Assembly: GCA_002591745.1 (NCBI GenBank)
Contig: PDLQ01000009.1
Coordinates: 62,001-126,000 of the forward strand
Reading direction: 5' to 3'
DNA: 64,000 bases
From: Lewinellaceae bacterium SD302
GTDB taxonomy: Bacteria > Bacteroidota > Bacteroidia > Chitinophagales > Saprospiraceae
Below are positions 2,599 through 63,478 of the stretch, in pieces (positions within the stretch are counted from its first letter, which is position 1; each line of letters starts with the position of its first letter). The notes under the pieces were generated by a model. That model saw only the letters and a list, made by a program, of their open reading frames with translations, was not told the origin of the DNA and did not search any database. The position numbers and the translations under genes are program-made.

Positions 2599-3186
2599 AT
2601 GTCTATCCTCTCCACCGCTCTCCTGCTCTTCTTCATCCTGGACCCCTTGGGGAATGTCCCGCTGGTTTTAACCTTACTTAAGGATTATAGTAAGCAGCAA
2701 CGTCGCAAGATCGTTCTCCGTGAATGCCTGATCGGTCTGGTCATCCTCGTTTCCTTTCTATTCGGCGGCGAGGTTTTTCTGAACGTTTTTCACTTGGAAA
2801 CGGAGGCCGTGCGCATCGCCGGCGGCTTGATCTTCCTGCTCATAGGTTTGAAAATGGTATTTCCCAGTGCCGACGGTTCGCCGCTATTCCCGCCCGAAGA
2901 AGAGCCGCTGATCGTGCCGATAGCCTTACCCATGATCGCCGGCCCCAGCGCCCTGGCTACTTTGTTAGTCCTGAGCCATAATCATCCCGACGACCAAATG
3001 GGGCTGCTCTACGCTTTGCTCCTGGCCTGGTTGGTTTCCACCCTGATTCTCTTCGTTGCTCCGGTATTGTATAAAGTGCTGCGTAAAAAAGGACTCATTG
3101 CCCTGGAACGGTTGATGGGCATGCTACTACTGATCCTTTCCGTGCAAATGTTTATTGATGGAATTCGGGGAGTGTTGGGATCTTAA
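2599..3186 (+). CDS. MarC family integral membrane protein
   Basis: 195 residues, almost entirely hydrophobic, with six likely membrane helices. The DPLGNVP motif at residues 15-21 is the hallmark of the MarC / UPF0056 (YhgN) family, and a second half with PIALPMIAGPSA at about 106-117 repeats the family signature. Length is normal for the family (190-220). The transported substrate is not established for these proteins; the old link to multiple antibiotic resistance is not supported by later work. It is a stand-alone gene with a dyad upstream and simple repeats directly after its stop codon. Confidence 0.9.
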   Translation: MSILSTALLLFFILDPLGNVPLVLTLLKDYSKQQRRKIVLRECLIGLVILVSFLFGGEVFLNVFHLETEAVRIAGGLIFLLIGLKMVFPSADGSPLFPPEEEPLIVPIALPMIAGPSALATLLVLSHNHPDDQMGLLYALLLAWLVSTLILFVAPVLYKVLRKKGLIALERLMGMLLLILSVQMFIDGIRGVLGS

Positions 3187-3248
3187 TGATCTAATGAGAC
3201 AATGATCTAATGAGACAATGAGACAATGAGACAATGAGACAATGAGCT
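3185..3248. repeat. Tandem array of eight 8-bp units (AATGAGAC type)
   Basis: Eight consecutive 8-mers: five exact AATGAGAC, two AATGATCT and one AATGAGCT. The array begins inside the marC stop codon and lies between two convergent genes. The remaining gene-free stretch to 3413 shows nothing else. Confidence 0.9.
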
Positions 3249-3413
3249 ACTGATAAAATGATTTAATCGGGGCCAGCTTACTTCGTTTCAGGGAATCACC
3301 GTCTGCTTCTTGAATCATCATTCGCTAAGGATAACGTATCAAAGAGTAATTAAGATTGAAGCTCGTCGAAGCGCTCCACTAGATCATTACTCATTAGATC
3401 AAAATCATTTGAC

Positions 3414-4928
3414 TTAGGCCACGTAACGGCTATTCCCCCTACCCTTCTTCCTGCCGCGGTCACGATTTCCTCCTCGCCGCTTACCATTCTTGCTCCACTT
3501 TTCAGTGGGTACGATCGCTTTTGGGTAATGGCCGCCGATCTTGACGCCATATTCCTCCTGTACGTGAGGCGGCATCTGATCCGGCTTGTGAATCCACTCG
3601 GCGGGCAGAGTTGCCAGTTCGGGGCACCAGAGTTTGACGTACTCTCCCTTCGGATCATAGCGCTCCGCCTGGCTGAGAATGTTGAAATAGCGGTCTTCCC
3701 GCGGGTCGGATCCTATGCCGGCCACGTAATTCCAGTTGCACCAATTACTGGTCACGTCGTAATCGGTCAGCACACTTTCAAAGTATTCGGCCCCCATTTG
3801 CCAGTTGAGGTGCAGGTCTTTAACCAGAAAGCTGGCCACGTTCTGGCGACCACGATTACTCATAAAACCGGTAGCGGCAATTTCCCGCATATTAGCGTCG
3901 ATGAAGGGAATACCCGTTTGTCCTTCGATCCACTTGTCCAGCAAACGGCGATCGTTGTGCCATCGGGGATTAACCGCTTCTTTGGGGCCGCCCTTCAGGA
4001 AAATCTTTTCGTCATACTTTTTGCCCTGTAAGCGAAAAAACTCCCGCCAGAGCAATTCGAAGAAAACCCAGTAAGTACTGTCATTACTCACCACCTCATC
4101 TTCAAACTGTTTGAGTTCATGGTAGATTCGCTTTGGACTCAGGCAACCCTGGGCCAGCCAGGCACTGAACTTGGTACTGTAATTTTTGCCGATCAGTCCG
4201 TTACGGGTTTCCTTGTAGTTTGCTACGGCCTCCGTATCAAAGAAGTATTCGTTGAGACGCGCCAATCCTTCGCTTTCGCCACCGGCAAAATGAATGGCGG
4301 CGCGTTCGTCGTGGACCGGCTCAGAGATACCGAAATCACTCAATGTTGGTGGTTCTCCGTAATCGACGTTATCCTCGATCAGGCGGGGAATACGTACCGG
4401 CGTCGGCAACGGATCTCGGACGGGGGTGATTTTCTCTACCTCTTTGCGAAAATTGGTGAATACGTCGGGCGTATGGGTAACCGGAAAAGGAAGATCGGAA
4501 GTATAGTAAAGCATCTTTCCCCGGCTGTAGCGGATTTCGCGACCGATGGTCCAGAGTTGTTGCTCCACGGCATCCTGTACTTTCAACTCCTCCTCGGTAC
4601 GTTCGCGGTTGCAGAAAACCCAACTGGCCCGGACCTCCAGTGTAAGGTCACGCAATATTTCTTCCGGCTTACCGATACGGATCAGTAAATCGTTTCCGCG
4701 TGACCGCAGGTTTTTTTTCAGCTCTACAACACTTTCCAGGATAAACTTCGCGCGGTGGCTACCGGTTTTGGGAAAACCGAATTTACGGGTCTGAGCCCCA
4801 AAAGTACGGGGGTCAAAAATATAGACGGGCAGCACCTCCTGGGCGTGCTCCAGGGCCTCGGTCAGGGCTTCGTTATCGTGGAGGCGAAGGTCCTGGCGGA
4901 ACCATACAATTGCGGCGCGTCTTCCCAT
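3414..4928 (-). CDS. DASH-type cryptochrome / photolyase
   Basis: 504 residues. N-terminal photolyase domain (about 5-135, starting AAIVWFRQDLRLHDN) followed by the all-helical FAD-binding domain (about 200-430) with WREFFRLQG at 294-302, GQTGIPFIDANMRE at 336-349, GFMSNRGRQNVASF at 354-367 and DVTSNWCNWNYVAGIGSDPR at 391-410, which are diagnostic for Cry-DASH. These enzymes bind FAD and a pterin antenna and repair cyclobutane dimers in single-stranded DNA using blue light, and some act as light sensors. After about residue 475 there is an Arg/Gly/Lys-rich tail (KRRGGNRDRGRKKGRG) that is disordered-looking and probably binds nucleic acid. Convergent with marC; monocistronic. Confidence 0.93.
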   Translation of the reverse strand: MGRRAAIVWFRQDLRLHDNEALTEALEHAQEVLPVYIFDPRTFGAQTRKFGFPKTGSHRAKFILESVVELKKNLRSRGNDLLIRIGKPEEILRDLTLEVRASWVFCNRERTEEELKVQDAVEQQLWTIGREIRYSRGKMLYYTSDLPFPVTHTPDVFTNFRKEVEKITPVRDPLPTPVRIPRLIEDNVDYGEPPTLSDFGISEPVHDERAAIHFAGGESEGLARLNEYFFDTEAVANYKETRNGLIGKNYSTKFSAWLAQGCLSPKRIYHELKQFEDEVVSNDSTYWVFFELLWREFFRLQGKKYDEKIFLKGGPKEAVNPRWHNDRRLLDKWIEGQTGIPFIDANMREIAATGFMSNRGRQNVASFLVKDLHLNWQMGAEYFESVLTDYDVTSNWCNWNYVAGIGSDPREDRYFNILSQAERYDPKGEYVKLWCPELATLPAEWIHKPDQMPPHVQEEYGVKIGGHYPKAIVPTEKWSKNGKRRGGNRDRGRKKGRGNSRYVA

Positions 4929-5049
4929 GTTTGTCTATTGCGTTCGATTAGTTACAAACCTAACTGAACAGGGTTGAAAGGGTTGAGCCGCAGGGGTGGT
5001 TTTTAAGGGTCAGCCGGCAGATATGACAGTCAGGTGGAAATAGAGCAAT

Positions 5050-5167
5050 GCTACTTTGAAGACATAATTGAATACGGACCGCTGCTCTTTAGCGTTTACG
5101 AAAAGAATCGCATAAAAGCGGCAGCCTGCAGCCTATTCTATGCCTTTCTTTTTGACTTCAAAGTAGC
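5050..5167. repeat. Two facing copies of the dispersed GCTACTTTG motif
   Basis: GCTACTTTG at 5050-5058 (plus) and at 5159-5167 (minus), both followed by AAG and an A-rich run, facing one another across about 100 bp. The minus-strand copy points at the cryptochrome start 231 bp away. The rest of the 4929-5205 gap shows no gene. Confidence 0.7.
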
Positions 5168-5205
5168 AAGGTTATAAACCAGCTTTAAATCCCCGCTAAT
5201 GACTA

Positions 5206-9375: not shown

Positions 9376-9379
9376 CATT

Positions 9380-11566: not shown

Positions 11567-11653
11567 TTAATGAATTACGATTTTATGAACTTCGCTACTT
11601 TGCTCACCATAGCTGATGCGGAGAGTATAATATATAGTAACCCAGTTTATTCG
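11567..11653 (-). pseudogene. Remnant of a T9SS type A sorting domain
   Basis: A 28-codon open stretch closed by a stop on the upstream side encodes YYTLRISYGEQSSEVHKIVI and then a terminal His. This mirrors the end of the neighbouring gene (MYSLRVRYVDHQWETVKVVV). Only the last strand pair of the domain survives, with no start or body, so it is the tail of a lost T9SS gene. A GCTACTTTG motif (11594-11602, plus strand) lies inside it. Confidence 0.6.
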
Positions 11654-11779
11654 TCATCACATAAATAGATAACTTTTGTCGCTAGCATTGCAACTCACTT
11701 TGCTACTTTGTCAGCCAAAAGAAAAACCGACGTACCCAAAGGCACACCGGCTTCTCACGAACTTAATTATATCTGTGTT

Positions 11780-14632: not shown

Positions 14633-14748
14633 CTTTACTACTATTTTGGCTGCCAAAGTAGCAAGGTTTACGGTAAACACCGGAGAAGTTAGGTGTCGGA
14701 GAAACAAATAATACTTCCCAGTACAGCGACGATGCGAAGAAGGTAAGC

Positions 14749-16848: not shown

Positions 16849-17080
16849 AGCTCGTCGGCCGAGGCGGACGGAACGGCCTGACTCGTCCGCCGAGCGGGTT
16901 CTGGAAAATAATAAAAACTGATCTCCGCTCGGCCGACGAACCAGCTACTAAGGTCGTGTCTTGGCGGACGAGCTCGCTATCACCCCCTGCTACTTTGAAG
17001 TCAAAACATATACCAGCACCAACAGCCCCTCCGCTCGGCCGACGAACCAGCACCTAACGTTGCGTTTCGGCGGACGAGCT
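16849..17080. repeat. Left REP repeat unit (232 bp)
   Basis: Contains REP stems GGCGGACG / CGTCCGCC, two copies of CCGCTCGGCCGACGAACCAG, and a central block with GCTACTTTG (16989-16997) followed by a copy of the last bases of the UbiA gene and its downstream sequence. Nearly identical to the unit at 17691-17921. Confidence 0.85.
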
Positions 17081-17088
17081 CAGACCGA

Positions 17089-17664
17089 CTATAAAATCTT
17101 CCTCTTAATGCCAATAAGTTTTTCTGCCAATTTGTAATTACAAATACCACTATCTCGATACCCTTCGTAATCAGCCAAGGAGGAATAGTTCCATTTTAAA
17201 GCATCATCAACGAGACCTGCTTCTTGCGGATTATCGTGGATGTAATCGAAACATATTTTAATGTAAGGAATGTATCTCGTGAAGGGTTCATCTTCATCCA
17301 ATTCCCACGATTCTGGTATAAAGTCTGAATAGGCAGGTTTGTATTTTGTTTTTGCCCTAAAAATACTGCCTCTCCGATCTCGTCGATCGTTAATGATTCG
17401 GGTATAACTACTCAGCATTATCCTGAATGCGGCGTGCAATTCTTGTTGTTTATTACTCTGCTTGAAATTCAAGCCTTCCAGTTTTGGAACAAGTTGAAGG
17501 TGAAAGTGTGTTGGCATCAGACAATAGCAAAGCACATCACAAACAGGGAGTAAATGTTTCTTTATTTTCTTTTCAAAGAACAAGTAGTCACTATCAGATT
17601 TGAAAAGTAGCTCTCGATTGATACTCTGGTTGTATACGTGATAAATCGTGTTTGCGTGATACAT
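17089..17664 (-). CDS. REP-associated tyrosine transposase (RAYT, Y1 family)
   Basis: 191 residues. The HUH metal-binding motif is THFHL (residues 52-56) after the typical CYCLMP lead-in; the nucleophile is the Tyr in SSYTRIIN; RRGSIFRAKTK and YIHDNPQEAGLV complete the RAYT signature. These single-strand nucleases cleave and join REP hairpins and are thought to spread them. Length is normal and the gene looks intact. It is flanked on both sides by its presumed substrates. Confidence 0.92.
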   Translation of the reverse strand: MYHANTIYHVYNQSINRELLFKSDSDYLFFEKKIKKHLLPVCDVLCYCLMPTHFHLQLVPKLEGLNFKQSNKQQELHAAFRIMLSSYTRIINDRRDRRGSIFRAKTKYKPAYSDFIPESWELDEDEPFTRYIPYIKICFDYIHDNPQEAGLVDDALKWNYSSLADYEGYRDSGICNYKLAEKLIGIKRKIL

Positions 17665-17690
17665 GCTTATAAGTTATAAAAATCGACCCA

Positions 17691-17921
17691 AGCTCGTCGG
17701 CCGAGGCGGACGGAACGGCCTGACTCGTCCGCCGAGCGAGTTCTGAAAAAAACAAAAACAAACTGATCTCCGCTCGGCCGACGAACCAGCTCCTAAAGTC
17801 GCGTTTCGGCGGACGAGCTTGCTATTACCCCTTGCTGCTTTGAAGTCAAAACCTACTACCAGCACCGACAGCCCCTCCGCTCGGCCGACGAACCAGCTAG
17901 TCGCGTTTCGGCGGACGAGCT
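17691..17921. repeat. Right REP repeat unit (231 bp)
   Basis: Second copy of the 16849-17080 unit, in the same orientation, differing at scattered positions (its central motif reads GCTGCTTTG at 17834). It is followed at 17922-17980 by a third partial repeat that overlaps the genuine 3' end of the UbiA gene. Confidence 0.85.
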
Positions 17922-17954
17922 TGCTATTACCCCTTGCTACTTTGAAGTCAAAAC

Positions 17955-18860
17955 CTATACCAGCACCAACAGCCCCAATCCGCCCAGTAGAAACAATTTT
18001 AGCTGCGTACTGATCCGGCCATAATCCCGGGCGTTACGGCTGCGGAGTAGTTGCCAGGCGAAGTAACAAAGTGCCAGACAAAGCAATACAACACAGATCA
18101 GAATTCCCGGTTTACGGAAGGCCGGCCACCCCAGCAATAGTGGAGCCAGTAATGCAAAAAGATTGAGTAAGGAAAGCAGGATGCCTAAACTGCGGCTATT
18201 GGAAATACCGAGAATAATGGGGATGGTACGACGGCCGATCAAGCGGTCACCGTTGATGTCTTCCATATCCTTGACCAGCTCACGGAGCCAGGTGGCGACG
18301 AAGGCGAAAATGCCGTAAATGAACAGGATTCTGATGGTGGCCGGCTCTGAAATGACCAATGAATTCAAGCCCTCCAACTCAGCCAGGGCGACCAGGGCAG
18401 GAACGCCGGCGCAGAAGGTAGCTACCAATAAATTGCCCGCCAAAGGTATAGGTTTCACGTAACGGGAATACAAGCTGAGCAGGCCTACGGCTACGGGATA
18501 TAGCCAGATCAAATGGCTTTTCCCGAGTGACAGTGCCAATTGCAGACTGATGCCGTATCCAATTAATATCAGGACAACAAAAAGCCAGCGACAGTTGGCC
18601 AGTCCGAGATCATCAACGTGGTTCCTTCCCGGCTTATTGACCGCGTCGGCTTTGGTATCCAAAATATCGTTAATAACATATCCGGCCGCCGTAACGATGG
18701 CACAGGCGATGACCAACAAAGCAAATTGAAGATGCGACAGTTGCGCATCGATCCCATTCCGCTCGAAGGCCGGTAAAATAAGACGGTAGAAAATCAGCGA
18801 CTGGGTAAGTGCTACCACCAATAGGTTGGGAAAGCGGACCAGTTGCAAATAGGGCAGCAT
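17955..18860 (-). CDS. UbiA-family prenyltransferase
   Basis: 301 residues from the ATG at 18858-18860, where the family's N-terminal LQLVRFPNLLVVALTQ begins. Eight or nine membrane helices. Both aspartate-rich motifs are present: NDILDTKAD (64-72) and DMEDINGD (198-205), which hold Mg2+ and the prenyl diphosphate. In Bacteroidota this branch is usually annotated as geranylgeranylglycerol-phosphate geranylgeranyltransferase-like; quinone or lipid product uncertain. A terminator-like hairpin lies only 18 bp before the start. Its last codons are copied in the RAYT repeats downstream. Confidence 0.88.
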   Translation of the reverse strand: MLPYLQLVRFPNLLVVALTQSLIFYRLILPAFERNGIDAQLSHLQFALLVIACAIVTAAGYVINDILDTKADAVNKPGRNHVDDLGLANCRWLFVVLILIGYGISLQLALSLGKSHLIWLYPVAVGLLSLYSRYVKPIPLAGNLLVATFCAGVPALVALAELEGLNSLVISEPATIRILFIYGIFAFVATWLRELVKDMEDINGDRLIGRRTIPIILGISNSRSLGILLSLLNLFALLAPLLLGWPAFRKPGILICVVLLCLALCYFAWQLLRSRNARDYGRISTQLKLFLLGGLGLLVLV

Positions 18861-21841: not shown

Positions 21842-22876
21842 TCAAAAGTGATTCCATCCCTGCGCCTTCAGGGGGTGAATCTTTCCACCCTTCGAGTGTA
21901 GTTTTACCCCTTCGGAGGCTTCCGTCATTTCGCCACAGATGTAGATATCTGGCATAAAACGAACCTTGTCCAGGTCTTTAGGATCTACCGTAAAGAGTAA
22001 TTCGTAATCTTCTCCGCCACTTAAGGCACAGGTGATCGGGTCGATGTTAAACTCAAGAGCTTGTAGCTGAGCATCTTCGTGGATGGGCACGCCGGACTCT
22101 TCGACGATGGCCCCCAGTCCGGAAGATTTACAAAGGTGAAAGACCTCACTGGCCAGTCCGTCACTAACGTCGATCATCGCCGTAGGCACCAAATTGGCTT
22201 TGGCAAAGGCATCGACCATATCGGTTCTGGCCTCTGGTTTGAGTTGGCGCTCTAGCAAATACTTGCCACGCTCTCCCATATCGGGCTGCACACCGGGATT
22301 TTCTTCGTAAATCCGTTTTTCTCTTTCCAGGATCTGCAGCCCCAGGTAAGCCGCGCCCAGGTTGCCGGTAATACACATGATGTCGCCGGCTTTGGCACCG
22401 CTGCGGCGGGCAATTCGATCCTCCGGCGCGCGGCCGATAGCGGTGACGCTGATATACAGCCCTTTATTGCTGCTGGTGGTATCACCGCCAATCAGGTCCA
22501 CCCCATAATGCTGGCAAGCCAGGCGGATGCCCGCGTAAAACTCCTCCAGGGCCTCCACCGAGAAGCGGTTGCTAATAGCGATGCTGACGGTTACCTGCTG
22601 CGGCCGGCCGTTCATGGCGCAGATATCGGAAATATTGACCACCACGGATTTATAGCCCAGGTGCTTCAGCGGGGTATAGGCCAGGTCGAAATGAATCCCC
22701 TCCACCAGCATATCGGTGGAAACCAACAATTGTTCCGGTCCTCCGGTAGCGATGATCGCCGCATCGTCTCCAACCCCCAAAAGGGTCGTTTTCTGCTGGG
22801 TGGCAAAATCTTCGGTCAGTCGATCGATGAGGCCAAACTCGCCGAGGGAGTTGACGTTGGTGCGGGTGGTGGACAT
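21842..22876 (-). CDS. thiL: Thiamine-monophosphate kinase
   Basis: 344 residues from the ATG at 22874-22876, which precedes LGEFGLIDRL, the family N-terminus; longer starts add unrelated sequence. Motifs: LLGVGDDAAII (Mg-ATP), TDMLVEGIHF, VNISDICAMNGRPQ, DLIGGDTTSSN, MIDVSDGLASEV and SGGEDYELLFTV. The enzyme phosphorylates thiamine monophosphate to the pyrophosphate cofactor. It is downstream of the LytTR regulator on the same strand with a 146-bp gap that holds a GCTACTTTG motif (22944-22952). Confidence 0.95.
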   Translation of the reverse strand: MSTTRTNVNSLGEFGLIDRLTEDFATQQKTTLLGVGDDAAIIATGGPEQLLVSTDMLVEGIHFDLAYTPLKHLGYKSVVVNISDICAMNGRPQQVTVSIAISNRFSVEALEEFYAGIRLACQHYGVDLIGGDTTSSNKGLYISVTAIGRAPEDRIARRSGAKAGDIMCITGNLGAAYLGLQILEREKRIYEENPGVQPDMGERGKYLLERQLKPEARTDMVDAFAKANLVPTAMIDVSDGLASEVFHLCKSSGLGAIVEESGVPIHEDAQLQALEFNIDPITCALSGGEDYELLFTVDPKDLDKVRFMPDIYICGEMTEASEGVKLHSKGGKIHPLKAQGWNHF

Positions 22877-23022
22877 AAAGTGGTGGTTGGTTTCCTGAGA
22901 GAACGGATTGGGCAGGGGCTTAGTTTTCCAATTATGCAGCTCTGCTACTTTGAAGCCCAAATACTCCTGCCCCACCCGGCGGGTATTCAAATTGGTTCCG
23001 TAAAGCTACTACTTCTTCGCGT

Positions 23023-28140: not shown

Positions 28141-28373
28141 GCCGACCTTACGTTTCAGTTCCCGGAAGAAAGGGCGTGTGGCCAACGTGCTTATTTTTGG
28201 GCATCCGACTCTGGTGAACCACCCTGGCATCGGGCATATTGTGGCTAACAAAGTAGCAAAGTCGATGTAGGACCGATACCTGTGTCTGCGGAATTGGTGA
28301 CCGGCCCATGTTTCGGAAGCATTTAATTGCCTTGAAAAGCTTGACATCAACTAACGCTCATCGACGATCAATT

Positions 28374-29438
28374 TTAATGCGCGCGCATAATCATTCTCAA
28401 ATCGGCCGCACTCACGCCCTGGCGGCGGGCTATCATGGAATGACCACGCAGCATCGGTTCTACTCCTTCCCCCAGAGTGGCAAGTACGGCCACGGTGACC
28501 ACCTCCCGGTCGGCGTAACTGAGGGTTACGTCTTCAAAAACGTCGGCAAAAAGATGTTCCTTTAAGAAGGTGTCTATTCGGGGAGCGAATTTACCGTAGT
28601 CGGCAGGTTCAGCCCAGTTTCGACCGGTGAGTTGTTCCAGATTTTTTAGTCCTTGTTCGTAACGGCTTGCATTGTCCTGCGGGGCCATTGGCACTGCTAC
28701 TTTGCCAGCCATAAAATCAACCGCGATTCCACGCTCCCGACGAGTTTCGATAGTGGCCATCAACATTTTCAGCCCTTGAATACTACGTGGAAAACCGGCG
28801 TAGGCGTAAAGATGAACGATGGCTTCGCGCAATTCTTCAACTTTAAGACCGAAGTTCAGGGATGCATCCAAGGCAATCTGCAACTTTTCCAACTCACCCG
28901 AAGTGGTCAGTGCAGCCACGCGGGAAAGATGATAATAGCGCAAAGATTTTCCCTCGGCTTTAAGTCCCGCATGATATTGCTCGTCCGTGACTGGCTTGCC
29001 CCAGATAACACGGCCGGCGGGATGTTCCTTGGTCAGCGCCAGTTGTACGAACCAGTGGTCGTTAGCTGCCCCGTGCCAGTGTTCCACGCCGGGCGGGCAC
29101 TGAACTTTATCGCCCTTACGAAGCACTTGCACCGTTTCTCCTGCCTCTTGGTAATAGCCGACGCCATCCAGTACAAGCAGCGTCTGCCCGGCCGCATGAT
29201 GATGCCAGTTACTCCGCGACTCAGGCGGAAAAGTGACGTTGCCAATCGGCACCGGCTGTTCGTCGTCTTCGATGACGAGCATACGCTCTACCCAAACCGG
29301 ACCGGTGAAGTTGGGGCTTTCAATCCGTTGGCCGGGACCGAAAATGACGTTAAGGGAATCCGGAATACCCTGGCTGGTAATTGACGACAGACATACCCCG
29401 ACCAGCGGCAGGAATAGTAACCGGAGGAAGTAATGCAT
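28374..29438 (-). CDS. Secreted fusion of a cupin and two carboxymuconolactone-decarboxylase domains
   Basis: 354 residues with a signal peptide (1-23). Cupin at about 50-140: SNWHHHAAGQTLLVLDGVGYY and CPPGVEHWHGA carry the metal-binding His residues (HHH ... E/Q ... H). Two CMD / AhpD-type domains follow, about 150-255 (LREAIVHLYAYAGFP) and 265-352 (LSYADREVVTVAVLATLG), but no CxxC is visible, so AhpD-like peroxidase activity is unlikely. Such fusions are common near AraC regulators and SDR enzymes and may isomerise or decarboxylate lactone-type substrates. Divergent from the AraC gene. Confidence 0.88.
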   Translation of the reverse strand: MHYFLRLLFLPLVGVCLSSITSQGIPDSLNVIFGPGQRIESPNFTGPVWVERMLVIEDDEQPVPIGNVTFPPESRSNWHHHAAGQTLLVLDGVGYYQEAGETVQVLRKGDKVQCPPGVEHWHGAANDHWFVQLALTKEHPAGRVIWGKPVTDEQYHAGLKAEGKSLRYYHLSRVAALTTSGELEKLQIALDASLNFGLKVEELREAIVHLYAYAGFPRSIQGLKMLMATIETRRERGIAVDFMAGKVAVPMAPQDNASRYEQGLKNLEQLTGRNWAEPADYGKFAPRIDTFLKEHLFADVFEDVTLSYADREVVTVAVLATLGEGVEPMLRGHSMIARRQGVSAADLRMIMRAH

Positions 29439-29605
29439 GGAAATCAGTTTTAATTTTTTGGCTAGTAACTTTCAGGAGCAGCAGCGTCTCTATTCGTCTT
29501 TTGACTAGCAAAGTAGCCATGTTGATTCAAGCTAAGCACCCATGACAACTGCGATGATCACCGCAGCTAAAGTAACAAGGCTGGTTAAGGATTTCAGCAA
29601 CCCTA

Positions 29606-30638: not shown

Positions 30639-31136
30639 ATGCATTTGCGCTTTTCAATTTACGCCTTCGCCCTTTTGCTATTCCTGGGTCTGTTCTCCTG
30701 TGGCACAACCAAGCAAACGGCAGGCCAGCTAGTTTCAGCCGAAGAGCGAGCGACTACCGAACAATACATTCGCCAACTCTCCGCCGATAAATGGCAGTGG
30801 ATGGCCGACAAAGATGTTGATAAGCTAGCCGATCTATTCGACGACTCCGCCAAATTCGTGCACATGAGTGGCAGCTGGAAAAAAGAACGGGAACTCGAAA
30901 TCATCGAAACCGGTAGCATCTGGTATAAGAGCACCAAAATACACGACGTTGCCGTAGAAGTGACTGGCAAAGTAGCAGTGCTTTGGAATCGCATTACACT
31001 GGAGGCGGAAGTACGTGGAGATACTGTCTCTAATGAATTTACCGTTACGGAAGTCTACCAAAAACGGGGCGAATCCTGGAAAATGATGGCTTTCACCTTC
31101 AGTAAAGTGAGAGATACCCACGAGATCGTCCATTAG
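30639..31136 (+). CDS. DUF4440 / SnoaL-like lipoprotein
   Basis: 165 residues, lipobox LFSC (residues 18-21). The rest is a single NTF2-like fold: LSADKWQWMADKDVDKLADL, FVHMSGSW, VAVEVTGKVAVLWNRIT and VTEVYQKRGESWKMMAF. Members of DUF4440 are often secreted and of unknown function. It follows the AraC gene by 47 bp and may belong to the same transcript; the next gene begins 47 bp after it. Confidence 0.85.
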   Translation: MHLRFSIYAFALLLFLGLFSCGTTKQTAGQLVSAEERATTEQYIRQLSADKWQWMADKDVDKLADLFDDSAKFVHMSGSWKKERELEIIETGSIWYKSTKIHDVAVEVTGKVAVLWNRITLEAEVRGDTVSNEFTVTEVYQKRGESWKMMAFTFSKVRDTHEIVH

Positions 31137-31642: not shown

Positions 31643-31861
31643 CAGCTCTGTTACCTCCTTCAAAGCAATTAAGCGCCGTCTACTCATAACCCGTGAAAGA
31701 TCATTGTCCGCTAATTTCAAGTTCTGTTAATCTGGCTACGCTGATCGTCACCGGCAAATAAAGTTCTTGCTGTTCGTTCAGCCTGCTACTTTGAAGCCGC
31801 AAAAACGACTAATTTTAAAGATACTCCTCGGAGTTAAAGTCCAAATTTAAATTTCTGCCCC

Positions 31862-38513: not shown

Positions 38514-38729
38514 TTTACGTGTGAATTGGATTGGGCATCAGGAACCACTTCGGTATTTTTCTCAATGCACCAAATTACTGCGGTCGGTGATCGCTTTTGT
38601 TCCCAGTTAGTATTGATCACGATAATTGTCCATCGCCCACAGCATTGCTACTTTGTCAACCAAAAAGACGAATCACCTTCTTATCGGCTTTCGGAGTTTG
38701 AGGTTAAAATAAGTTATAACAACTAAACG

Positions 38730-41936: not shown

Positions 41937-42098
41937 TGCTGAATTAATTATTAAGGCCCTAAGTTAGCTTTTTTTGGCTGGCAACTCCGAGGAGCGACAT
42001 TACAATTATTCGGGTTCGGACTAACAAAGTAGCAAAGTTCGTTCAGAGCGTGTATAATACCTGCCGGCGGCGATCACTAAAGTTAAAACTAGTTGGCT

Positions 42099-43856: not shown

Positions 43857-46505
43857 CTATTGCTTCACGAAGCGTTGCGGACGCTGCTCGCCGTTTACGT
43901 TTACCATCAGGTAGTAAACGCCGGGCTTGAGGTCAGCTACATTGATGGCCGTTTGGTCAGCATCTACTTTCAGCGTGCTGACTACCTGGCCGGTAGCATT
44001 CACTATGCGGATCACACTCATCATCTCGCCAGAGCGTACCTGAAGCATATCGGTAGCCGGGTTCGGGAAGAGGAGAACGTCGTTGTCCAAAGCTTCAACA
44101 CTGCTACTTTGGTAGCCAATATCCTCCAAGCTAACGGTTGGAGTAACACCGGTTTCCAGTTCAGTGATGGTCATCGTTGGAGCATCCGGATCGATCAGCG
44201 CACCAGTTACACCGGTAATGGTGATGGCATCCATGTAAATCTGGTCGCCATTGGCACTGGCGTCACACTGGAAGCGGAAGCTGGTGTTGCTACCCAACTG
44301 ACTGCCCGTCAGCGTCACCGTAGAGGTGTAGTAGGTATTGTTGTTGAAATTCGTTCCGGCGGCGTAGGCGGCCACGGTCTGCCAGCTACCACTACCCTGG
44401 CGAATCCGGAACCAGAAGTCCTCACCGTTCTCCATACTGTAAGGGTAGAAGAAGAAAGTTACTTCCACAGCATCGTAGCCGGAGATATTGTAACCGCTGG
44501 TGCTCATGGATGAAGCATTACCGGAATTGTCGCGCAGGCGGATGCTGTAGTTGCCTTCGTAGGAGCGGCTATCGTTGTCGCGGTAACAGTCGCTACCACC
44601 GTCTTGCCAGCCATCCCAGCCGGTTTCAAAGTAAGAACCGAGGATTTCAGTCGTACCGCTGGGTTGACATGGGATACAGTCAGGGCCACCACAGTCTACT
44701 CCGGTCTCCTGACCGTTCTGGATACCGTCATTACAGCTGTAGCACGGAGCACAGGGTCCACCACAATCGATACCTTCTTCGCCCTGGTTCTGGATACCAT
44801 CATTACAGGTTGGGGCCGGGCCGCCACCGAGACAGAAGTTGGTCGTCTCACTGGAACCGAACTGGCCGCCGGAAGCGAGCGTCGTGCCGCCAGAGGATAC
44901 GTTGTAGTTACCCACACCATAAGAACAGCAAATACCGTCACCGTAGCTGTCGTTGATCCGGAAGTCGAAGCAACCGTCTACGATACATACCGTTTCGCTG
45001 TACTGGGTATTGGAAGAAGCGTAAGGACCACCGCTGGCCACTACGCTGCCGCTACTGTTGGTGATCGTCCAGGTAGTTTCGCCGGGGTAATTGTCGGTCA
45101 GAATAGCAACGACAACCTCGTTATCGGTACACGGTACCGGACAAGGGTCACAGTCGCCACCACAGTCCACGCCGGTTTCGTTACCGTTCTGGATACCGTC
45201 GAAACAGTTAGGACCAACCGCACCACAAGGAGAGGTACAGTTTGAGTTAGCGATGGTGTTGCGGACCACGTTACCTGGCTGAGGGCCGAAGCCCTGAGTG
45301 AAGTCGATACCCGTAGTCAGGTGACAATAGCTCATGATGGTACCACCGGAAGATGGGCTACCGGGTAGTGAACAGGATCCTTCCGTCTGGCCGGCACAGC
45401 CGTCGATGGCCGTATTGTTGCCGTTCCACACACAAGCGTGGGTGTGGCGAGAGCCGATCAGGTGACCCATTTCGTGGGTAACAACCATTACGGAGAAAGA
45501 GTAAACCGGTACTTGGCTGTAGCTGCTGCTGATGCTGCTGAAACACTTACTGTTATCCGGATTGGAGTTACAGATTCCGGAGAAACCGGCGGCTATACCA
45601 CCACTGGCCTGGTAAGAAACAAGGTGAGCCAGGTCGCCGTTGAAGCTGCCAGTAGCGTTCTGGAAGTCAGAAAGCATTCCGGAAGAAGAACTGCTGCTGT
45701 AGGGAGAAGTGCTCGACCAGGCAAACATTTCGGAAATCTGCATGGCCAGGTTTTCGTTGGCGTACAGAGTAATGGACTCGTTGAAGAGACCAGTTACGTA
45801 GTTGACCGCGTTGGTAACGCCGCCTTTCTGAACGACGATGTCATTGTCGACTTCCACATAAACGCGGATACAGTCACCTACGTCTTCGGCATTAGTCGGC
45901 TCGGCCAGTTCTTCGGCGCTGTAGCCGCGGCCGTCGTCTTCGGTACCACAGTCCAGGTCGAAAGACATGTTGTTATCATTGTAGATGATGTGGGTCAGCT
46001 TGTCGCTACCCTCCAGCAAACCAACCACGAAGTTCCCTTCGCTGGTGCTGATTACCCCGTGCAATTCATTATCGAATACACTGAGGGCGACCAAAGAGGT
46101 CGGGTCGTCGAGCAAGGTACCGTAGTAGTAAAGTCCCGGTTGGTAGTCCACTACCCCGCCCTCGGAGTCGCGCAGCACGAAATCATCGGCTAATACCTGG
46201 TTGGGAATCAGGGCGAGTTGTTTGTCGCCCAGGCCTGGAAGCTGGAGGCTGAGTTCCAGGTATTCCGGAGCGGCCTTTTGCAGGTCGCGGATACCCGACA
46301 GATCGGGGGTGAAGAGAATACCTTCGGTGATGTTGGCAGTGGTTACGTTCTCAGACTGCAAATTGGTGTTGTAGTCTTTGGCAATAGTGAAAGCCTCCTG
46401 GGCTTTTTTAGCTCCGGCCTTTTGAATTTTGGCGGAGATGGCCCCTTGGCCAAAAGCCAGCATTGGGCATAAGAGTAACAAGAATAGTAGATTGGCTATT
46501 CGCAT
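43857..46505 (-). CDS. Secreted M12-type zinc metalloprotease with T9SS type A sorting domain
   Basis: 882 residues with signal peptide (1-19). Propeptide-like region to about 205, then a reprolysin-type catalytic domain: HEMGHLIGSRHTH (H344, E345, H348, H354) and Met-turn IMSYC (390-394). Three cysteine-rich modules follow (CxDGIQNGxETGVDCGG type, at about 437, 575 and 592), then a galactose-binding-like or MAM-like domain, and the type A sorting domain (about 800-882, VLLFPNPATDMLQV, GVYYLMV). Secreted through the T9SS, it should degrade proteins outside the cell. The linker before the sorting domain reads GYQSSSV and includes a GCTACTTTG motif. Confidence 0.93.
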   Translation of the reverse strand: MRIANLLFLLLLCPMLAFGQGAISAKIQKAGAKKAQEAFTIAKDYNTNLQSENVTTANITEGILFTPDLSGIRDLQKAAPEYLELSLQLPGLGDKQLALIPNQVLADDFVLRDSEGGVVDYQPGLYYYGTLLDDPTSLVALSVFDNELHGVISTSEGNFVVGLLEGSDKLTHIIYNDNNMSFDLDCGTEDDGRGYSAEELAEPTNAEDVGDCIRVYVEVDNDIVVQKGGVTNAVNYVTGLFNESITLYANENLAMQISEMFAWSSTSPYSSSSSSGMLSDFQNATGSFNGDLAHLVSYQASGGIAAGFSGICNSNPDNSKCFSSISSSYSQVPVYSFSVMVVTHEMGHLIGSRHTHACVWNGNNTAIDGCAGQTEGSCSLPGSPSSGGTIMSYCHLTTGIDFTQGFGPQPGNVVRNTIANSNCTSPCGAVGPNCFDGIQNGNETGVDCGGDCDPCPVPCTDNEVVVAILTDNYPGETTWTITNSSGSVVASGGPYASSNTQYSETVCIVDGCFDFRINDSYGDGICCSYGVGNYNVSSGGTTLASGGQFGSSETTNFCLGGGPAPTCNDGIQNQGEEGIDCGGPCAPCYSCNDGIQNGQETGVDCGGPDCIPCQPSGTTEILGSYFETGWDGWQDGGSDCYRDNDSRSYEGNYSIRLRDNSGNASSMSTSGYNISGYDAVEVTFFFYPYSMENGEDFWFRIRQGSGSWQTVAAYAAGTNFNNNTYYTSTVTLTGSQLGSNTSFRFQCDASANGDQIYMDAITITGVTGALIDPDAPTMTITELETGVTPTVSLEDIGYQSSSVEALDNDVLLFPNPATDMLQVRSGEMMSVIRIVNATGQVVSTLKVDADQTAINVADLKPGVYYLMVNVNGEQRPQRFVKQ

Positions 46506-47508: not shown

Positions 47509-47750
47509 TTTTTTGGCTGACAAACCCGCTTGGCTAGACGCCAGGTCGGACGGGGTAGCAGCGCTCAATGATCGAAGAGGGCAGGTTGGAAGCTAGAAGT
47601 GAAGTTTATTGATATTAACTTTCAACTACTCTTTCCTTCGGTTTTTCAGCCTCTCGCCATTCAAATAACCTTGCTACTTTGTAGACCAAAGATAAACCAA
47701 AGCTGATCTCCCCGATCCAAGTCAGGACCTTTGCCGTAAATACCCCTCAT

Positions 47751-54200: not shown

Positions 54201-54329
54201 CAAAGTAGCAAAGTTGGTGATTGGCCGGGGGAATAGAGATTCGAGGAGGAAGAAGGGCTTCATCTGAGCTTCCACTCTGTTACTCTTCTGGCTTCCGTTC
54301 TCCGGTTTTTCAAAAGCACTGCTACTTTG
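54201..54329. repeat. Divergent pair of GCTACTTTG motifs
   Basis: One copy (54201-54209, minus) points to purA at 61 bp, the other (54321-54329, plus) to the T9SS gene at 110 bp. Both continue as TTAGCC, and the plus copy then has CAAAA, which matches the extended form of the motif. This arrangement is what two divergent promoter-linked elements would give. Confidence 0.7.
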
Positions 54330-56829: not shown

Positions 56830-59800
56830 ATGAATTGTTACTTTTACCGTATGTTCCGTCACTGGCTTATTCTACTATTGTTGTTCTGCGCGGGTTGGAC
56901 GTGGCCAGGTAGCAGACTAACGGCCCAGTACACCGAGACGGACATCAAGATCTATAACTTCACCGACGGACTGAGCCACCGTAATGTCTTCGCCATCGAA
57001 CAGGACGCCGGTGGACTCATCTGGCTGGCTACCATCAATGGCCTCAACAGTTTCGACGGCTACGGCTTTCAACATTTCGATCAGCAGGAGGCTTACGCCG
57101 GATTGGAAATGATCAATGAACTTGAACTGGATGAAGACAGCCTACTATACGCTACCTCCCCGGATTATTTCATCTCTCACAACTTACAAACCGGCCGGGC
57201 CCGACGCTTTCAGATCAAAGCCGGGGAAATCCGCCGCCGCGAAAGTGTAGTACCTACTGCAGCCACCTCCGGCGCGAACGGTGGCGTGTTCATGGTCCTC
57301 CAGGAAGAACGCAGCGGTCGCCTTAGTCTGAACCATTATCGGCCTGGCAAGGACAAACTGCCCGTACGTATCGCTGAACTGGACGGTCAGTATAATCAGC
57401 GGCCGCTGGTTCACCGTGGCGATACTATTTACTGCGGCGCTTACCAATCTGAGCTCTGGTTACTGGATGCCCTCACCGGTAGCCGGATCGCCAGTCACCA
57501 ACTCCCCCCGACCCCAGCCGGCGAAACCAGCCGGATCAGTGATCTCCACGCCCGCCCGGATGCCCTATGGATATTATTGGAGGACGGCCGTGTTTTCAGC
57601 CACCACTATGGCAGCACGGATTTTACGCTGTTTCCCGCCGCCACCCCCGCTACCGGTAACAGCCCACTACAAAGCCTGCACGTGGCAGAAAACGGGGATA
57701 TCTACGTCGGTGGTTTTGGCAGTCTATTTGTATACGATCACTGGAAACGGGAGTGGGAGGATCTGGATGCGCCCATTCGTCAGCTCGTCAAAAACACCTG
57801 TACTTACCGAGATATTCTGGTCGACATCTCCGGTACCGCCTGGGTAGCCAGCGATTTCGGGGCTATTCGCATCACCCGCAACGACCGGTTATTCACCCAG
57901 TATCTCAGCGGCGGATCGGAGTATTGCAGCAATGTCTATTGCAGTACTCGTGGCATTACCGAGGACGAAAACGGCATCGTTTACATCAGCTACTACAACA
58001 GTATTCACCGGTTGGACCCGGTCACCAACGACCTGAGGCCACTTTTTCCCAGCAACGACTATTTCAATTATCCCTACGGTCTTCATTATTACAATGACCA
58101 TTTGTACACCGGAGACGGGGCACGGATTAACCTCAAGGATCTCCGGGTAGAACAACTGTTTGCCGACGATGGTGAAAGCGAAGGTGCCATTACCCAGTCC
58201 GCCACCGACAGTATCATCTGGTATGGTTACGATCAGCAATTGCTTTTCCACGACCCCCGTACGGACAGTACCAGTATTTACCGTGATGACCGGGGCCGTA
58301 GCTGGAATCAACTAACCAATGGCAGCACCATCACTTACTTACTCCATCGGCCCGGCAAGCTATTTGTGGGTACAAAAGATGCTGGTCTTTACGAACTCAG
58401 TCTGGCCAAAGGCCAACTACGGCAATGGCAAAAGGACTCTACCCAGTTTGGTCTGGCTTCCAATCGTATCAACGCCATTCACTTTCGGGCTGGGGGTGGC
58501 TATCAAAGTAGCAATGTTACTAAAAAAACGAGGCGCAACGATTCCGGCGACGAGCGAAACAGCCAGTCAAACAATCGTATTCAGCCCGCTTCCAGCCCTA
58601 CTGAAGGTCAGCTGTTCCTGGCGACGGCCAAGGGCATTCACCGCGTCGATCTGCCCAGCGGACTGGTGACTGCCTACATCAGCGAAAACGGGGCAGAATT
58701 ACCCAATGATTTTATTAATGGAATTCTCCCGGAAGGAGATTCCGTCATCTGGGTCAGTACCGACCACGGGCTCTGCCGGTTTTCTCTGGAAAATGTAAAA
58801 TGCGCCAACTTCTTCACTACTGACGGACTGAGTTCCGATGAATTCAATCGCATCAGTTTCTTCCGTTCCCGCAACGGGCGGATGTACTTCGGTGGCCTCA
58901 ACGGTATTAATGCTTTTCGACCCGAACCCCGCTTCCTGGAAGAACGGCGCGAGCGCAGTCAGGTACCACTGATGATCACGGATTTCACCTACGTTGACGG
59001 CCGCCTGGACAGTATCTTCGCTATGGATCCTACGGAGATCAACGAACGTGGACGGATTGAACTGAGTCATCGCGACCGCCAATTCAATTTCAGTTTTTCC
59101 CTGGCGGACTATCGCTCTCCCAACCAAAACCGATACAGTTATTTCCTGGAAGGGTACGACCAGGGCTGGAGTGGCGAAAGTACCGACTACAATCTGCGTT
59201 TTACCGATCTGCCACCGGGCGATTATATCCTCCACGTCAAGGCCCGCGTTGCTCAGGAAGACTGGATGGATCGCCAGCTATCCATTCCACTGATTATCGA
59301 GCAGCCCTATTATTACAATTGGTGGTTCTGGGTTTCAGTCATTGGCGTTATTGTGTTGGTTGGATTCGGACTACTCCGTTACCGTATTCACCTGACCGAG
59401 CAGCAGCGGCTGGCGCTGGAGAAAACCGTCAAGGAAAGGACCGCTGAACTGGCTGCGGAGAAGCAGAAAAGCGAAGAGTTACTACTCAATATCCTTCCGG
59501 CTCAAACCGCCCGGGAACTGATGGCCAATGGTCACGCCAATGCCTACCGTCACGAACGGGTAACCGTATTTTTCAGTGACTTCGTTTCCTTCACCGCCAT
59601 TGCCAGCAAACTGGAACCGGAGGTACTGGTTCGGGAACTAGACCTCTGTTTTCGCACTTTTGATGAGATCGTGGCCAACTACGGACTGGAAAAAATCAAG
59701 ACCATCGGTGACGCCTATCTCTTCATCGGCGGTCACGATACCGACGAAACCGGTTTGGCCGCCATTAACTGCGTAAGGGCGGCTCGCGATATCCAGGCTT

Positions 59801-60096
59801 TTTTGAAAAGTCACCACGCTTCGGCCAAAGCTCAGCAGCGACCGGCTTTCAAGGCTCGAATCGGCATGCATACCGGCCCCATCGTAGCCGGAGTAGTGGG
59901 TACCCATAAGTTCGCCTACGATATTTGGGGAGAAACTGTCAATATTGCCGCCCGGATGGAAAGTAATGGGGTAGCCGAAGGAATCGTCGTTTCAGAATCT
60001 ACTTATAAGCTGATTCGTAGTGAGTTTGCCTGCCGGCCCTACAAGACTTTTGAGGAACACGAACGGCAGGTAGAAATGTGGGAGGTTCTGGGGTAA
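56830..60096 (+). CDS. Propeller-type sensor with class III adenylate cyclase output
   Basis: 1088 residues. Signal peptide (about 8-33), then a two-component-regulator-type propeller (about 35-700; e.g. FTDGLSHRNVFAIEQDAGGLIWLAT), a Y_Y_Y domain (about 735-822; FSLADYRSPNQNRYSYFLEG), one membrane helix (828-852), a coiled coil, and a cyclase domain. The cyclase has both metal Asp (D917 in FFSDF, D961 in IGDAY), a Lys at 957 and D1031 in YDIWGETVNIAARM; Lys/Asp at the base positions predicts ATP as substrate. The usual output of this receptor class is a histidine kinase. A polar stretch (about 555-590) contains a GCTACTTTG motif. A second start is ATG at 56851. Confidence 0.92.
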   Translation: MNCYFYRMFRHWLILLLLFCAGWTWPGSRLTAQYTETDIKIYNFTDGLSHRNVFAIEQDAGGLIWLATINGLNSFDGYGFQHFDQQEAYAGLEMINELELDEDSLLYATSPDYFISHNLQTGRARRFQIKAGEIRRRESVVPTAATSGANGGVFMVLQEERSGRLSLNHYRPGKDKLPVRIAELDGQYNQRPLVHRGDTIYCGAYQSELWLLDALTGSRIASHQLPPTPAGETSRISDLHARPDALWILLEDGRVFSHHYGSTDFTLFPAATPATGNSPLQSLHVAENGDIYVGGFGSLFVYDHWKREWEDLDAPIRQLVKNTCTYRDILVDISGTAWVASDFGAIRITRNDRLFTQYLSGGSEYCSNVYCSTRGITEDENGIVYISYYNSIHRLDPVTNDLRPLFPSNDYFNYPYGLHYYNDHLYTGDGARINLKDLRVEQLFADDGESEGAITQSATDSIIWYGYDQQLLFHDPRTDSTSIYRDDRGRSWNQLTNGSTITYLLHRPGKLFVGTKDAGLYELSLAKGQLRQWQKDSTQFGLASNRINAIHFRAGGGYQSSNVTKKTRRNDSGDERNSQSNNRIQPASSPTEGQLFLATAKGIHRVDLPSGLVTAYISENGAELPNDFINGILPEGDSVIWVSTDHGLCRFSLENVKCANFFTTDGLSSDEFNRISFFRSRNGRMYFGGLNGINAFRPEPRFLEERRERSQVPLMITDFTYVDGRLDSIFAMDPTEINERGRIELSHRDRQFNFSFSLADYRSPNQNRYSYFLEGYDQGWSGESTDYNLRFTDLPPGDYILHVKARVAQEDWMDRQLSIPLIIEQPYYYNWWFWVSVIGVIVLVGFGLLRYRIHLTEQQRLALEKTVKERTAELAAEKQKSEELLLNILPAQTARELMANGHANAYRHERVTVFFSDFVSFTAIASKLEPEVLVRELDLCFRTFDEIVANYGLEKIKTIGDAYLFIGGHDTDETGLAAINCVRAARDIQAFLKSHHASAKAQQRPAFKARIGMHTGPIVAGVVGTHKFAYDIWGETVNIAARMESNGVAEGIVVSESTYKLIRSEFACRPYKTFEEHERQVEMWEVLG

Positions 60097-62196: not shown

Positions 62197-62337
62197 GGTT
62201 TAGCCCGTTTTCAAGCCAGTAAATGACAGCAACATAAGAAATCCTGACCGACCGACGTTGAATCCACACCCTTTCACTTCTATTAAGGCTGATCATGATT
62301 TTATTTCCTGGTCGGCCACAAAGCAACTCAACTCGGT

Positions 62338-63162
62338 ATGTCCAGCTTTTCCCCCTCCTGCTTATTATCCATTTTTCTGCTAGTGTTTTTGGGTCTTACC
62401 ACTCCGCTGTTTGCTCAAACGCCCTACGGATCCCCCAAGGCAAACGAAAAAATGCTTGGCCTGGAAGACGTCAACCTGATCGATCAGATGATGGTTTATA
62501 TTCCTGGCGTAGGCTCCCCCAGTCGTGAAGCACTGGAAAGGCAAAATATCAAAGCCTACATGATGCCCATCCGGCAATGCTCCGACCTGAATTTGGAGTG
62601 GGCCTACGCGCTCACTAGTGGGGTTGAGTATTACGTCAACCTGAATAACAACTACAAGGACAATCTCAGCCCGGATTACCTCGCCCTGAGTCTGGCCGGA
62701 CAGGGAACCCGCCCTAACCTGATCGATGGTTTTAAATTCCTGGTGGAAAACGGTACCGTTTCCGCCAGTATCGTCCCGTTTGGCAGCCAGACCATTCCCA
62801 GAGCCGTATTTAACGTTCCCCGGTTCACCATCACCAATTACGCCTATCTCTTCCGTCCTACTACCCGGGAACGCAACCGTATTTTTGAACTGCGCAAAGC
62901 ATTGTCCCGCGGCAATCCCGTTATCGTAGAACTCAGCACCGCCGCTGACTTCAGTACCCTTAAGTCGCCCATCTATCAGATCAACCAACCTCCAACGGAA
63001 ACCCATTACCTCACCATCGTGGGTTACGATGAATCCGAAAAGACTTTTGAGTTACGTTCGAGCTTTGGTCGTCACTGGGCGGATGCCGGGTACGTAAGAA
63101 TCTCTTACGATGATCTGGCACGCTATGCGAATAACGGGTACGTGATTATTCCTAAGCAGTAG
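62338..63162 (+). CDS. Secreted papain-fold (C1-like) protein without catalytic cysteine
   Basis: 274 residues with signal peptide (1-27, ending LFAQ). The C-terminal half has the C1A order: RNRIFELRKALSRGNPVIVEL, then THYLTIVGYDESEKTFELRS (H223) and SFGRHWADAGYVRISYDDL, matching the H-x-V-x-x-V-G-Y and N-S-W-G-x-x-W-G-x-x-G-Y blocks of papain. The N-terminal block QCSDLNLEWAYAL corresponds to QxxCGSCWAFA, where E87 stands for the nucleophile and S241 for the Asn. A binding or inhibitor role is more likely than proteolysis. Stands alone; SSB genes converge on it. Confidence 0.75.
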   Translation: MSSFSPSCLLSIFLLVFLGLTTPLFAQTPYGSPKANEKMLGLEDVNLIDQMMVYIPGVGSPSREALERQNIKAYMMPIRQCSDLNLEWAYALTSGVEYYVNLNNNYKDNLSPDYLALSLAGQGTRPNLIDGFKFLVENGTVSASIVPFGSQTIPRAVFNVPRFTITNYAYLFRPTTRERNRIFELRKALSRGNPVIVELSTAADFSTLKSPIYQINQPPTETHYLTIVGYDESEKTFELRSSFGRHWADAGYVRISYDDLARYANNGYVIIPKQ

Positions 63163-63163
63163 T

Positions 63164-63478
63164 TCAATCCCCCAGGAAGGTAAACTGATCTACCCGAATT
63201 TCCGGTGTAATCACCTGCTCGCCCAGGCTGTTTTCAAACTGATGGTAGCTCAACTTGCCCCGTAGCGCAATCTGGCTCCCCCGTTTCAAGTAAGTGTGTA
63301 ATTGCAGACCGATTGGCCCCCAGGCTAGACACTGATGGGTATCCGGCTCGTGGTTCTCATTCGGCGTGGCTACTTTGAAGCGTATCAAATCTGCCGCCGC
63401 CCTTTCTGTAGTAGTATAGAATATGTGATCCACTACCCTTCCAATCAGGTTGACCCGATTCAGATTCAGACCTGTCAT
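63164..63478 (-). CDS. Single-stranded DNA-binding protein, short form
   Basis: 104 residues, one OB fold: NRVNLIGRVVD at the start, LIRFKVATPNEN, HQCLAWGPIGLQLHTYLKRG and IALRGKLSYHQFE. The acidic C-terminal tip (DDDIPF) that normally recruits repair proteins is missing. Start codon overlaps the stop of the preceding SSB gene by 4 bp (ATGA), so they are translationally coupled. Confidence 0.85.
   Translation of the reverse strand: MTGLNLNRVNLIGRVVDHIFYTTTERAAADLIRFKVATPNENHEPDTHQCLAWGPIGLQLHTYLKRGSQIALRGKLSYHQFENSLGEQVITPEIRVDQFTFLGD

Follow-up and report, generated by a model that had tools for sequence, protein, structure and literature searches.

A dispersed nine-base word with strand-specific spacing in a Neolewinella genome, possibly a self-recognition sequence resembling DNA uptake sequences

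The stretch of DNA analysed here (the window; 64,000 nucleotides of Lewinellaceae bacterium SD302, contig PDLQ01000009.1, positions 62,001 to 126,000) carries 22 exact copies of the nine-base word GCTACTTTG, which recurs at high density throughout the genome. Copies of the word exclude each other over 2-3 kb on the same strand, relatives in the genus carry a different word built on the same frame, GCACCTGCG, and several copies inside genes arose in place. Based on these genome comparisons, we suspect that GCTACTTTG and its flanks serve as a self-recognition word specific to this species, working like a DNA uptake sequence (DUS), a reading that in our judgement stands about an even chance of being correct.

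Abundance and anatomy of the word

All 22 copies sit at the positions and on the strands reported in an earlier note on this DNA. That note put the excess in the window at about 45-fold; measured against dinucleotide shuffles the excess is real and slightly smaller, about 37-fold (22 copies versus a mean of 0.60 and a maximum of 4 in 100 shuffles). Across the whole genome (G000; 5.48 Mb in 147 contigs) there are 770 + 763 = 1,533 copies, about 280 per Mb and balanced between the strands, versus 43 + 37 = 80 copies of the reversed word. Thus the excess is genome-wide, at about 19-fold over what is a rough control. The extended form TTGCTACTTTGNNNNCCAAAA occurs 81 times in the genome, versus 0 for its reverse.

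Among named species Neolewinella agarilytica DSM 24740 gives the best match to a window protein, at 85% identity, and the match in genome G002, taken below as N. agarilytica, is likewise 85%. In the window's own genome the extended consensus, which we read from base frequencies, is approximately RRCAYTGCTACTTTGYYAGCCAAAA, and the word takes the form [AG][AG]CA[CT]TGCTACTTTG followed by YYAGCCAAAA. The G002 word takes the form C[CT][CT]TGCACCTGCG, about three bases, GCGCC and an A/C-rich tail, with GCTC beginning 17-22 bases upstream of the core in 75 of 193 copies. The two words have a common anatomy, C-x-Y-T-GC-xx-CT-xx-G and then GCC with an A-rich tail, in which GCTACTTTG and GCACCTGCG share the core frame GC-xx-CT-xx-G. 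In both species it is core position 5 that tolerates change best (T to A 13 times versus 2.2 expected in the own genome; T to C 32 times versus 6.2 expected in G002). The conserved stretch measures about 25 bp in all, and its flanks are kept in genes as well as between genes. The inverted repeat GCTA-CTTTGn-TAGC to which the earlier note drew attention is present but optional, occurring in 34 of the 137 copies in the 464 kb of the own genome that served for placement and spacing.

Same-strand exclusion

For G002, spacing statistics were taken from four contigs of at least 30 kb (550 kb, holding 139 of the 193 copies), and the lag and gap table from all contigs. Adjacent copies alternate in orientation, with 98 neighbouring pairs opposite and 36 the same in the own genome (P about 8e-8), 99 and 36 in G002, and 127 and 48 in the larger G002 set (P 2e-9). 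By comparison, 44 other frequent words of the own genome gave 1,342 opposite and 1,430 same. Neighbouring copies of GCACCTGCG in fifteen other genomes of the genus (37-120 kb each) were opposite in 57 cases and the same in 34 when summed.

Neighbours alternate because copies exclude each other on the same strand. The same-strand pair correlation at 0-0.3, 0.3-1, 1-2 and 2-3 kb is 0.16, 0.21, 0.20 and 0.44 in the own genome and 0.19, 0.08, 0.11 and 0.40 in G002, and past 3 kb it lies at 0.69-1.25 in the two genomes. Opposite-strand pairs are enriched about 3-fold below 300 bp and lie at 0.54-1.22 farther out. The coefficient of variation (CV) of same-strand spacing is 0.56 in the own genome and 0.62 in G002, versus 0.85 and 0.86 when orientations are shuffled and positions kept, and none of 500 such shuffles gave a CV that low. 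Same-strand pairs closer than 2 kb number 8 in the own genome, versus 41.2 under uniform placement and 24.3 with orientations shuffled; the corresponding figures in G002 are 4 versus 35.2 and 23.1. Any mechanism has to account for the length scale of this exclusion, 2-3 kb, and for its dependence on strand, and the same-strand statistic could be used to seek such words in other genomes.

Twelve divergent pairs in G002 have 51-85 bp between core starts, and one more has 174 bp; in one pair read by eye, GCTC-type blocks lie between the cores.

Placement and origin of the copies

Genes were called with a home-made hexamer scorer in place of a standard caller. On these calls, 67 of the 137 copies in the sample of the own genome lie in genes (30 sense, 37 antisense) and 70 between genes, and the density is 1,122 per Mb between genes versus 167 per Mb inside. 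In tandem intergenic regions 23 copies point with the genes and 20 against, and distances to start codons are scattered.

Protein alignments bear on how the in-gene copies came about. Nine of the 67 in the own genome were informative, having a homologue that aligns across the site, and eight of these are gapless and one has a gap nearby. The clearest gapless site is the copy at window position 30968, in a conserved stretch that reads VEVTGKVAVLWNRITL here and VEVSGNVAVLWNRITL in the homologue. Among the 73 in-gene copies of G002 five were informative, three of them gapless and two with a gap nearby. Several of the compared copies fall where conservation is poor, in linkers or stretches resembling signal peptides, and an alignment might put a gap in the wrong place there. 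Judging from this small sample of in-gene copies, copies of the word, which lies both inside and between genes, appear to arise by substitution.

Some in-gene copies fall in N-terminal signal-peptide-like stretches, in more than one reading frame, in G002 (C58 23469 and C34 about 104309), and likewise in such stretches in the own genome (C1 144217 and C2 22118).

A different word in related species

The extended form is found in none of 59 related genomes, and GCTACTTTG itself reaches at most about 30 per Mb in them. Counts relative to the reversed word include 127/27 in G056, 179/66 in G033 and 72/23 in G028, three genomes that do not belong to the genus. In an unbiased k-mer count of about 180 kb of G002 the top 9-mer was GCACCTGCG. 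The same word, or a 9-mer overlapping it, was also the top word in samples of G006, G015, G005, G018 and G014 and the third in G013. It was outside the best nine words in 40-120 kb samples of G001, G004, G007, G009, G012, G016, G017, G019 and G020, several of which do show it in whole-genome counts.

Whole-genome counts of GCACCTGCG and its reverse are 1,337/27 in G002, 1,478/29 in G005, 1,491/64 in G006, 1,374/22 in G014 and 949/15 in G003. Since the reversed word is a rough control, and since several genomes of other genera exceed a 3-fold excess of GCACCTGCG at low counts (e.g., 43 versus 4 in G047 and 20 versus 1 in G028), we compared densities, calculated as whole-genome counts over rounded genome sizes. 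Twelve of the 20 congeners have 138-257 copies per Mb, G012, G017, G019 and G020 have 60-108, G004, G007 and G016 have 32-57, and G001 has 13, while 39 genomes of other genera have at most 23. In the window's own genome GCACCTGCG is at plain background (37 copies versus 38 reversed), and a weight matrix of the G002 word found no excess of remnants in the own sequence (4 versus 13 in the reversed sequence).

A one-protein tree joins the window's species to G002 and G018 (100/100), and the clade around them also includes G005, G015 and G006; all five of these genomes bear GCACCTGCG. Given that the window's species is nested among bearers of the genus word, the simplest account is that the word changed on this branch, and we consider that the species probably switched, one gene with paralogues being a thin basis for a species tree.

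The degenerate word TGCWMCTKYG, which covers both words, occurs at 273 per Mb in the own genome and 203 per Mb in G002. Among 298 genomes of the family, three outside the genus reach 75-78 per Mb, with matches relative to the reversed word of 558/75 in G168, 577/77 in G241 (both of genus g43) and 193/26 in G321. G168 has three copies, within 20 kb, of a longer repeat containing GCTGCTACTTCGTGGT (L343; 3114, 3520 and 8205). This repeat looks distinct from the genus words, and it is possibly another repeat family that shares part of the core. In G321 (genus g48, about 2.5 Mb) the degenerate word is as dense as in G168.

Candidate words from G001 and G009 were rejected, as they look like codon repeats. 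In 22 kb of Flavilitoribacter nigricans (L081) overlapping 9-mers chain into a near-palindrome, CCAGAGTTGCAAACTCTG, with 5-7 copies, which resembles a repetitive extragenic palindromic (REP) repeat. The word ATCTGACA has 8 copies in 20 kb of G006 (L204) versus 0.27 expected and is outside the best nine 8-mers of a 120 kb sample of that genome; it is probably a local repeat. Three copies of GCACCTGCG in G002 (C58 18370, 34106 and 34148) run into a loosely shared longer tail like GCGCCTGATCTTGCCGAAGG, perhaps a longer repeat.

Transformation machinery and a candidate receptor pair

Bacteroidota transform without known pilus parts, according to passages in PMC8459023. In Riemerella anatipestifer the same passages place an outer-membrane barrel with a carboxypeptidase-regulatory domain and an adjoining DUF5689 protein among the transformation essentials, along with ComEC and DprA, and R. 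columbina is described in part of PMC7965970 as preferring its own DNA. Three families (PF07963, PF18942 and PF03772) were looked for across the genus. PF07963, the type IV pilin N-terminus, had no match in the 21 genus genomes at E <= 0.001, in a search that left out other pilus parts; the same search matched 8 of 14 control genomes. A pilin receptor is therefore not expected in the genus.

DUF5689 is present in one of the 21 genomes, that of the window's own, switched species. The protein (G000:C115:8574-10598) has 675 residues, three tandem domains and, by eye, a lipoprotein-like start. Directly before its gene lies that of a 933-residue barrel protein (G000:C115:5673-8471), in which the carboxypeptidase-regulatory and plug domains both score below Pfam cut-offs. 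In the other 20 genus genomes no match to the barrel extends beyond about 220 residues, and the lipoprotein has no match. Relatives of the lipoprotein do occur outside the genus, including 8 of 23 genomes from other families of the order, and thus either this species gained the protein or the other congeners lost it. A PDB sequence search with the DUF5689 protein gave no match, and its score against the NCBIfam M949_1556 lipoprotein family, 118.6 bits, is below the cut-off of 475.

The layout recalls the Riemerella pair RA0C_RS04915/RA0C_RS04920, in which an outer-membrane barrel with a carboxypeptidase-regulatory-like domain stands beside a DUF5689 surface protein; the two pairs are likened by layout and domain only, not by sequence alignment. 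We know of no uptake word in Riemerella. The part of PMC7965970 that tabulates Riemerella k-mers lists A-rich words. The pair coincides with the switched species (one of 21 for each), and the family had been picked in advance from the Riemerella paper. The coincidence is suggestive, and we treat it as a lead, not as proof.

One extended copy of the word (G000:C59:85070-85090) lies about 50 bp from a ComEC domain match (85144-85959), maybe by chance, as there is a copy every 3.6 kb.

Discussion

Counted over the whole genome, sorted by genic class and orientation in 464 kb of it, and sought in relatives, as the earlier note had rightly proposed, the motif behaves as a real recognition site. A word that is born by mutation, tolerated in genes, different in sister species and spaced out matches the literature on DNA uptake sequences. 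Passages of PMC7811141 describe such words, spread over the genome, in Pasteurellaceae and Neisseriaceae, and part of PMC3630211 reports dialects of them in Neisseriaceae. Like the Neisseriaceae DUS, the motif is a short word with very many copies, with species-conserved dialects that differ between relatives and with constant and variable core positions; the likeness is drawn from genome distribution alone. It differs in the phylum, in the same-strand exclusion and in that PF07963 went undetected in 21 of 21 genomes. The uptake signal sequence (USS) of Pasteurellaceae, as described in passages of PMC1939737 and PMC7811141, has a 9-bp core and flanks that are weaker. Its copies number about 1,500, are found within genes and outside them, show no net bias to either strand and are fairly evenly spaced. 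All these traits are seen here as well. Spacing of the Haemophilus influenzae USS is about 1 kb (passages of PMC7811141), whereas the motif here has about 280 copies per Mb, a spacing that depends on strand and an unrelated sequence.

How such a word might work can be sketched. A DNA-handling machine, most likely the type-IV-pilus-free natural transformation of Bacteroidota, would favour DNA with the word on the strand that it acts on. Preferred uptake and recombination, or selection, would generate copies by point mutation and retain them, to the point where one stands every few kilobases on each strand. Once a strand has a copy, another on that strand within about 2-3 kb would bring no benefit, and one on the opposite strand would serve that other strand, so that two spaced-out sets may result. 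In the window's species the word would have changed from the genus form (TTTGCACCTGCG then GCGCC) to TTGCTACTTTG then GCCAAAA. A candidate cause of the change is a new surface receptor, possibly the barrel with the triple-DUF5689 lipoprotein.

In its fullest form the proposal is that Neolewinella has a type-IV-pilus-free self-recognition code read strand by strand, which one species rewrote on acquiring the barrel and DUF5689 pair; the excess of GCACCTGCG would have disappeared and about 1,500 copies of GCTACTTTG arisen. We put this forward tentatively, and think it somewhat more apt to be wrong than right. If this is true, Bacteroidota would, to our knowledge, have an uptake-sequence system for the first time, and strand-specific reading would be new to such systems as a whole. 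Two questions could then be put to the test: by what means these bacteria select DNA, and how a receptor changes in step with 1,500 sites in the genome. A search of open-licence PMC papers returned nothing relevant on an uptake word in Bacteroidota or Lewinella.

Known features of uptake sequences that the motif shares include a large excess in a single lineage and lineage-specific dialects, neither of which rises above background in the other species when G000 and G002 are compared. Several observations weigh against the uptake reading. Uptake-sequence orientation has no effect on uptake in H. influenzae, according to part of PMC1939737, and thus strand-specific exclusion is no described property of uptake sequences; the motif here, judged on its genome distribution, is not indifferent to orientation. 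Pasteurellaceae and Neisseriaceae use type IV pili (part of PMC7965970), and such a machine, judged on PF07963 only, was not detected in the genus. Position 5 apart, one-mismatch variants of the core are barely in excess (142 in total versus 107.6 expected in the own genome), so near-variants are fewer than we would expect of a leaky drive. One in-gene copy in G002 has a 9-residue gap beside it. Nucleotide alignments between the own genome and G002, which cover 21 kb in 37 pieces with three own copies and no G002 copy within them, show small gaps at or beside two of the three.

The machinery gives further points on the same side. ComEC is found in 21 of 21 genus genomes, and since these include G001, which has neither word, its presence is no guide to that of the motif. 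Of 16 genomes sampled from other genera of the family, 11 have relatives of the lipoprotein, and none of these is known to us to bear a word. In G033, whose DUF5689 homologue is 45% identical, 40 kb contain no dense 9-mer. The barrel and DUF5689 pair by itself thus does not imply a motif. The receptor association consists of one event, with three families examined, and no receptor for the genus word was found.

The alternative that survives best, in our opinion a rather unlikely one, is a Chi-like directional site for genome maintenance, in which a moving recombination or repair enzyme reads the word in one orientation and needs it every few kilobases on each strand. A directional reader would favour strand-specific exclusion, and the word is tolerated within genes and on either strand. 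The known Chi sites measure 5-8 bp, and the word here prefers intergenic DNA (1,122 versus 167 per Mb) and has conserved flanks extending to about 25 bp in all. The Chi of Escherichia coli, GCTGGTGG, is also a dispersed, over-represented oligonucleotide whose orientation matters, but it is oriented and clusters on one strand, whereas the motif here is spaced out and balanced. Run with the same script, 400 kb of E. coli gave 62 same-strand Chi pairs closer than 2 kb versus 29.7 under uniform placement and 46.0 with orientations shuffled, a same-strand CV of 1.23, and 67 of 105 sites on one strand. The balance of 770 to 763 copies, and of 56 to 45 on the plus and minus strands in 360 kb of contig C1, also speaks against an orientation bias of the replichore type, the origin not having been located. 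A search of open-licence PMC papers for Chi in Bacteroidetes found nothing related.

The earlier note had suggested a global regulator site, and this suggestion stands as a rival. The equivalent but different word of the relatives was invisible to the note's author. We consider it unlikely that the word binds an abundant nucleoid-organising or global regulatory protein whose specificity has changed in this species. The preference for intergenic DNA, the common frame in two species and the close divergent pairs of G002 at 51-85 bp would suit such a protein. Copies bear no relation to gene orientation, however, and their distances to starts are scattered, and ordinary binding to double-stranded DNA does not predict an exclusion that is confined to the same strand over 2-3 kb.

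The note's third suggestion, a small mobile repeat of the REP type or a miniature inverted-repeat transposable element (MITE) that spread independently in each species, is very unlikely as a general explanation. It would account for the species-specific words, the partial inverted repeat of some copies and the excess of close divergent pairs, and with a gap nearby in two of the five G002 comparisons insertion is possible for some copies. Eight of the nine comparable in-gene copies of the own genome are gapless relative to their homologues, however, about half of the copies (67 of 137) lie in genes, the conserved stretch spans only about 25 bp, and a same-strand spacing rule on the kilobase scale is unexpected of transposition. 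That the word is a variant of the Bacteroidota -33/-7 promoter, proposed because TACTTTG resembles TANNTTTG and because nine of the sixteen intergenic copies in the window face a same-strand gene, is hardly credible given random orientation over 464 kb (23 with and 20 against in tandem regions; 30 sense and 37 antisense in genes), scattered start distances and no conserved -33 element upstream.

The copies in the window

Six of the 22 window copies fall in genes on our calls, one sense and five antisense. The sense copy is at 2956..2964 (+) in gene 2599..3186 (+). The antisense copies are at 22944..22952 (+) in gene 21842..22990 (-), 28696..28704 (+) in gene 28374..29438 (-), 30968..30976 (-) in gene 30639..31136 (+), 44103..44111 (+) in gene 43857..46463 (-) and 58504..58512 (-) in gene 56830..60096 (+). 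The copy at 28696 agrees with the consensus at 24 of 25 positions, and that at 30968 lies in a conserved DUF4440 gene with gapless homologues.

The remaining sixteen are intergenic, the same number as in the earlier note, and nine of them are indeed aimed at a gene on the same strand, at distances that we place at 51-230 bp in place of the 22-231 bp given there. Plus-strand copies lie at 5050..5058, 11594..11602, 31785..31793, 47673..47681 and 63369..63377, and minus-strand copies at 5159..5167, 28249..28257, 29509..29517 and 42025..42033. Three more have the extended form, at 11702..11710 (+), 14654..14662 (-) and 38647..38655 (+), and a divergent pair is formed by 54201..54209 (-) on the left and 54321..54329 (+) on the right. 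The last two, at 16989..16997 (+) and 17936..17944 (+), belong to a local duplication at 16930-17990, in which the sequence adjoining the two cores is near-identical.

The window gave no match to Rfam above gathering scores, and a tRNA search of it found none. Among its commonest 9-mers is also CGGCCGACG, with 9 copies.

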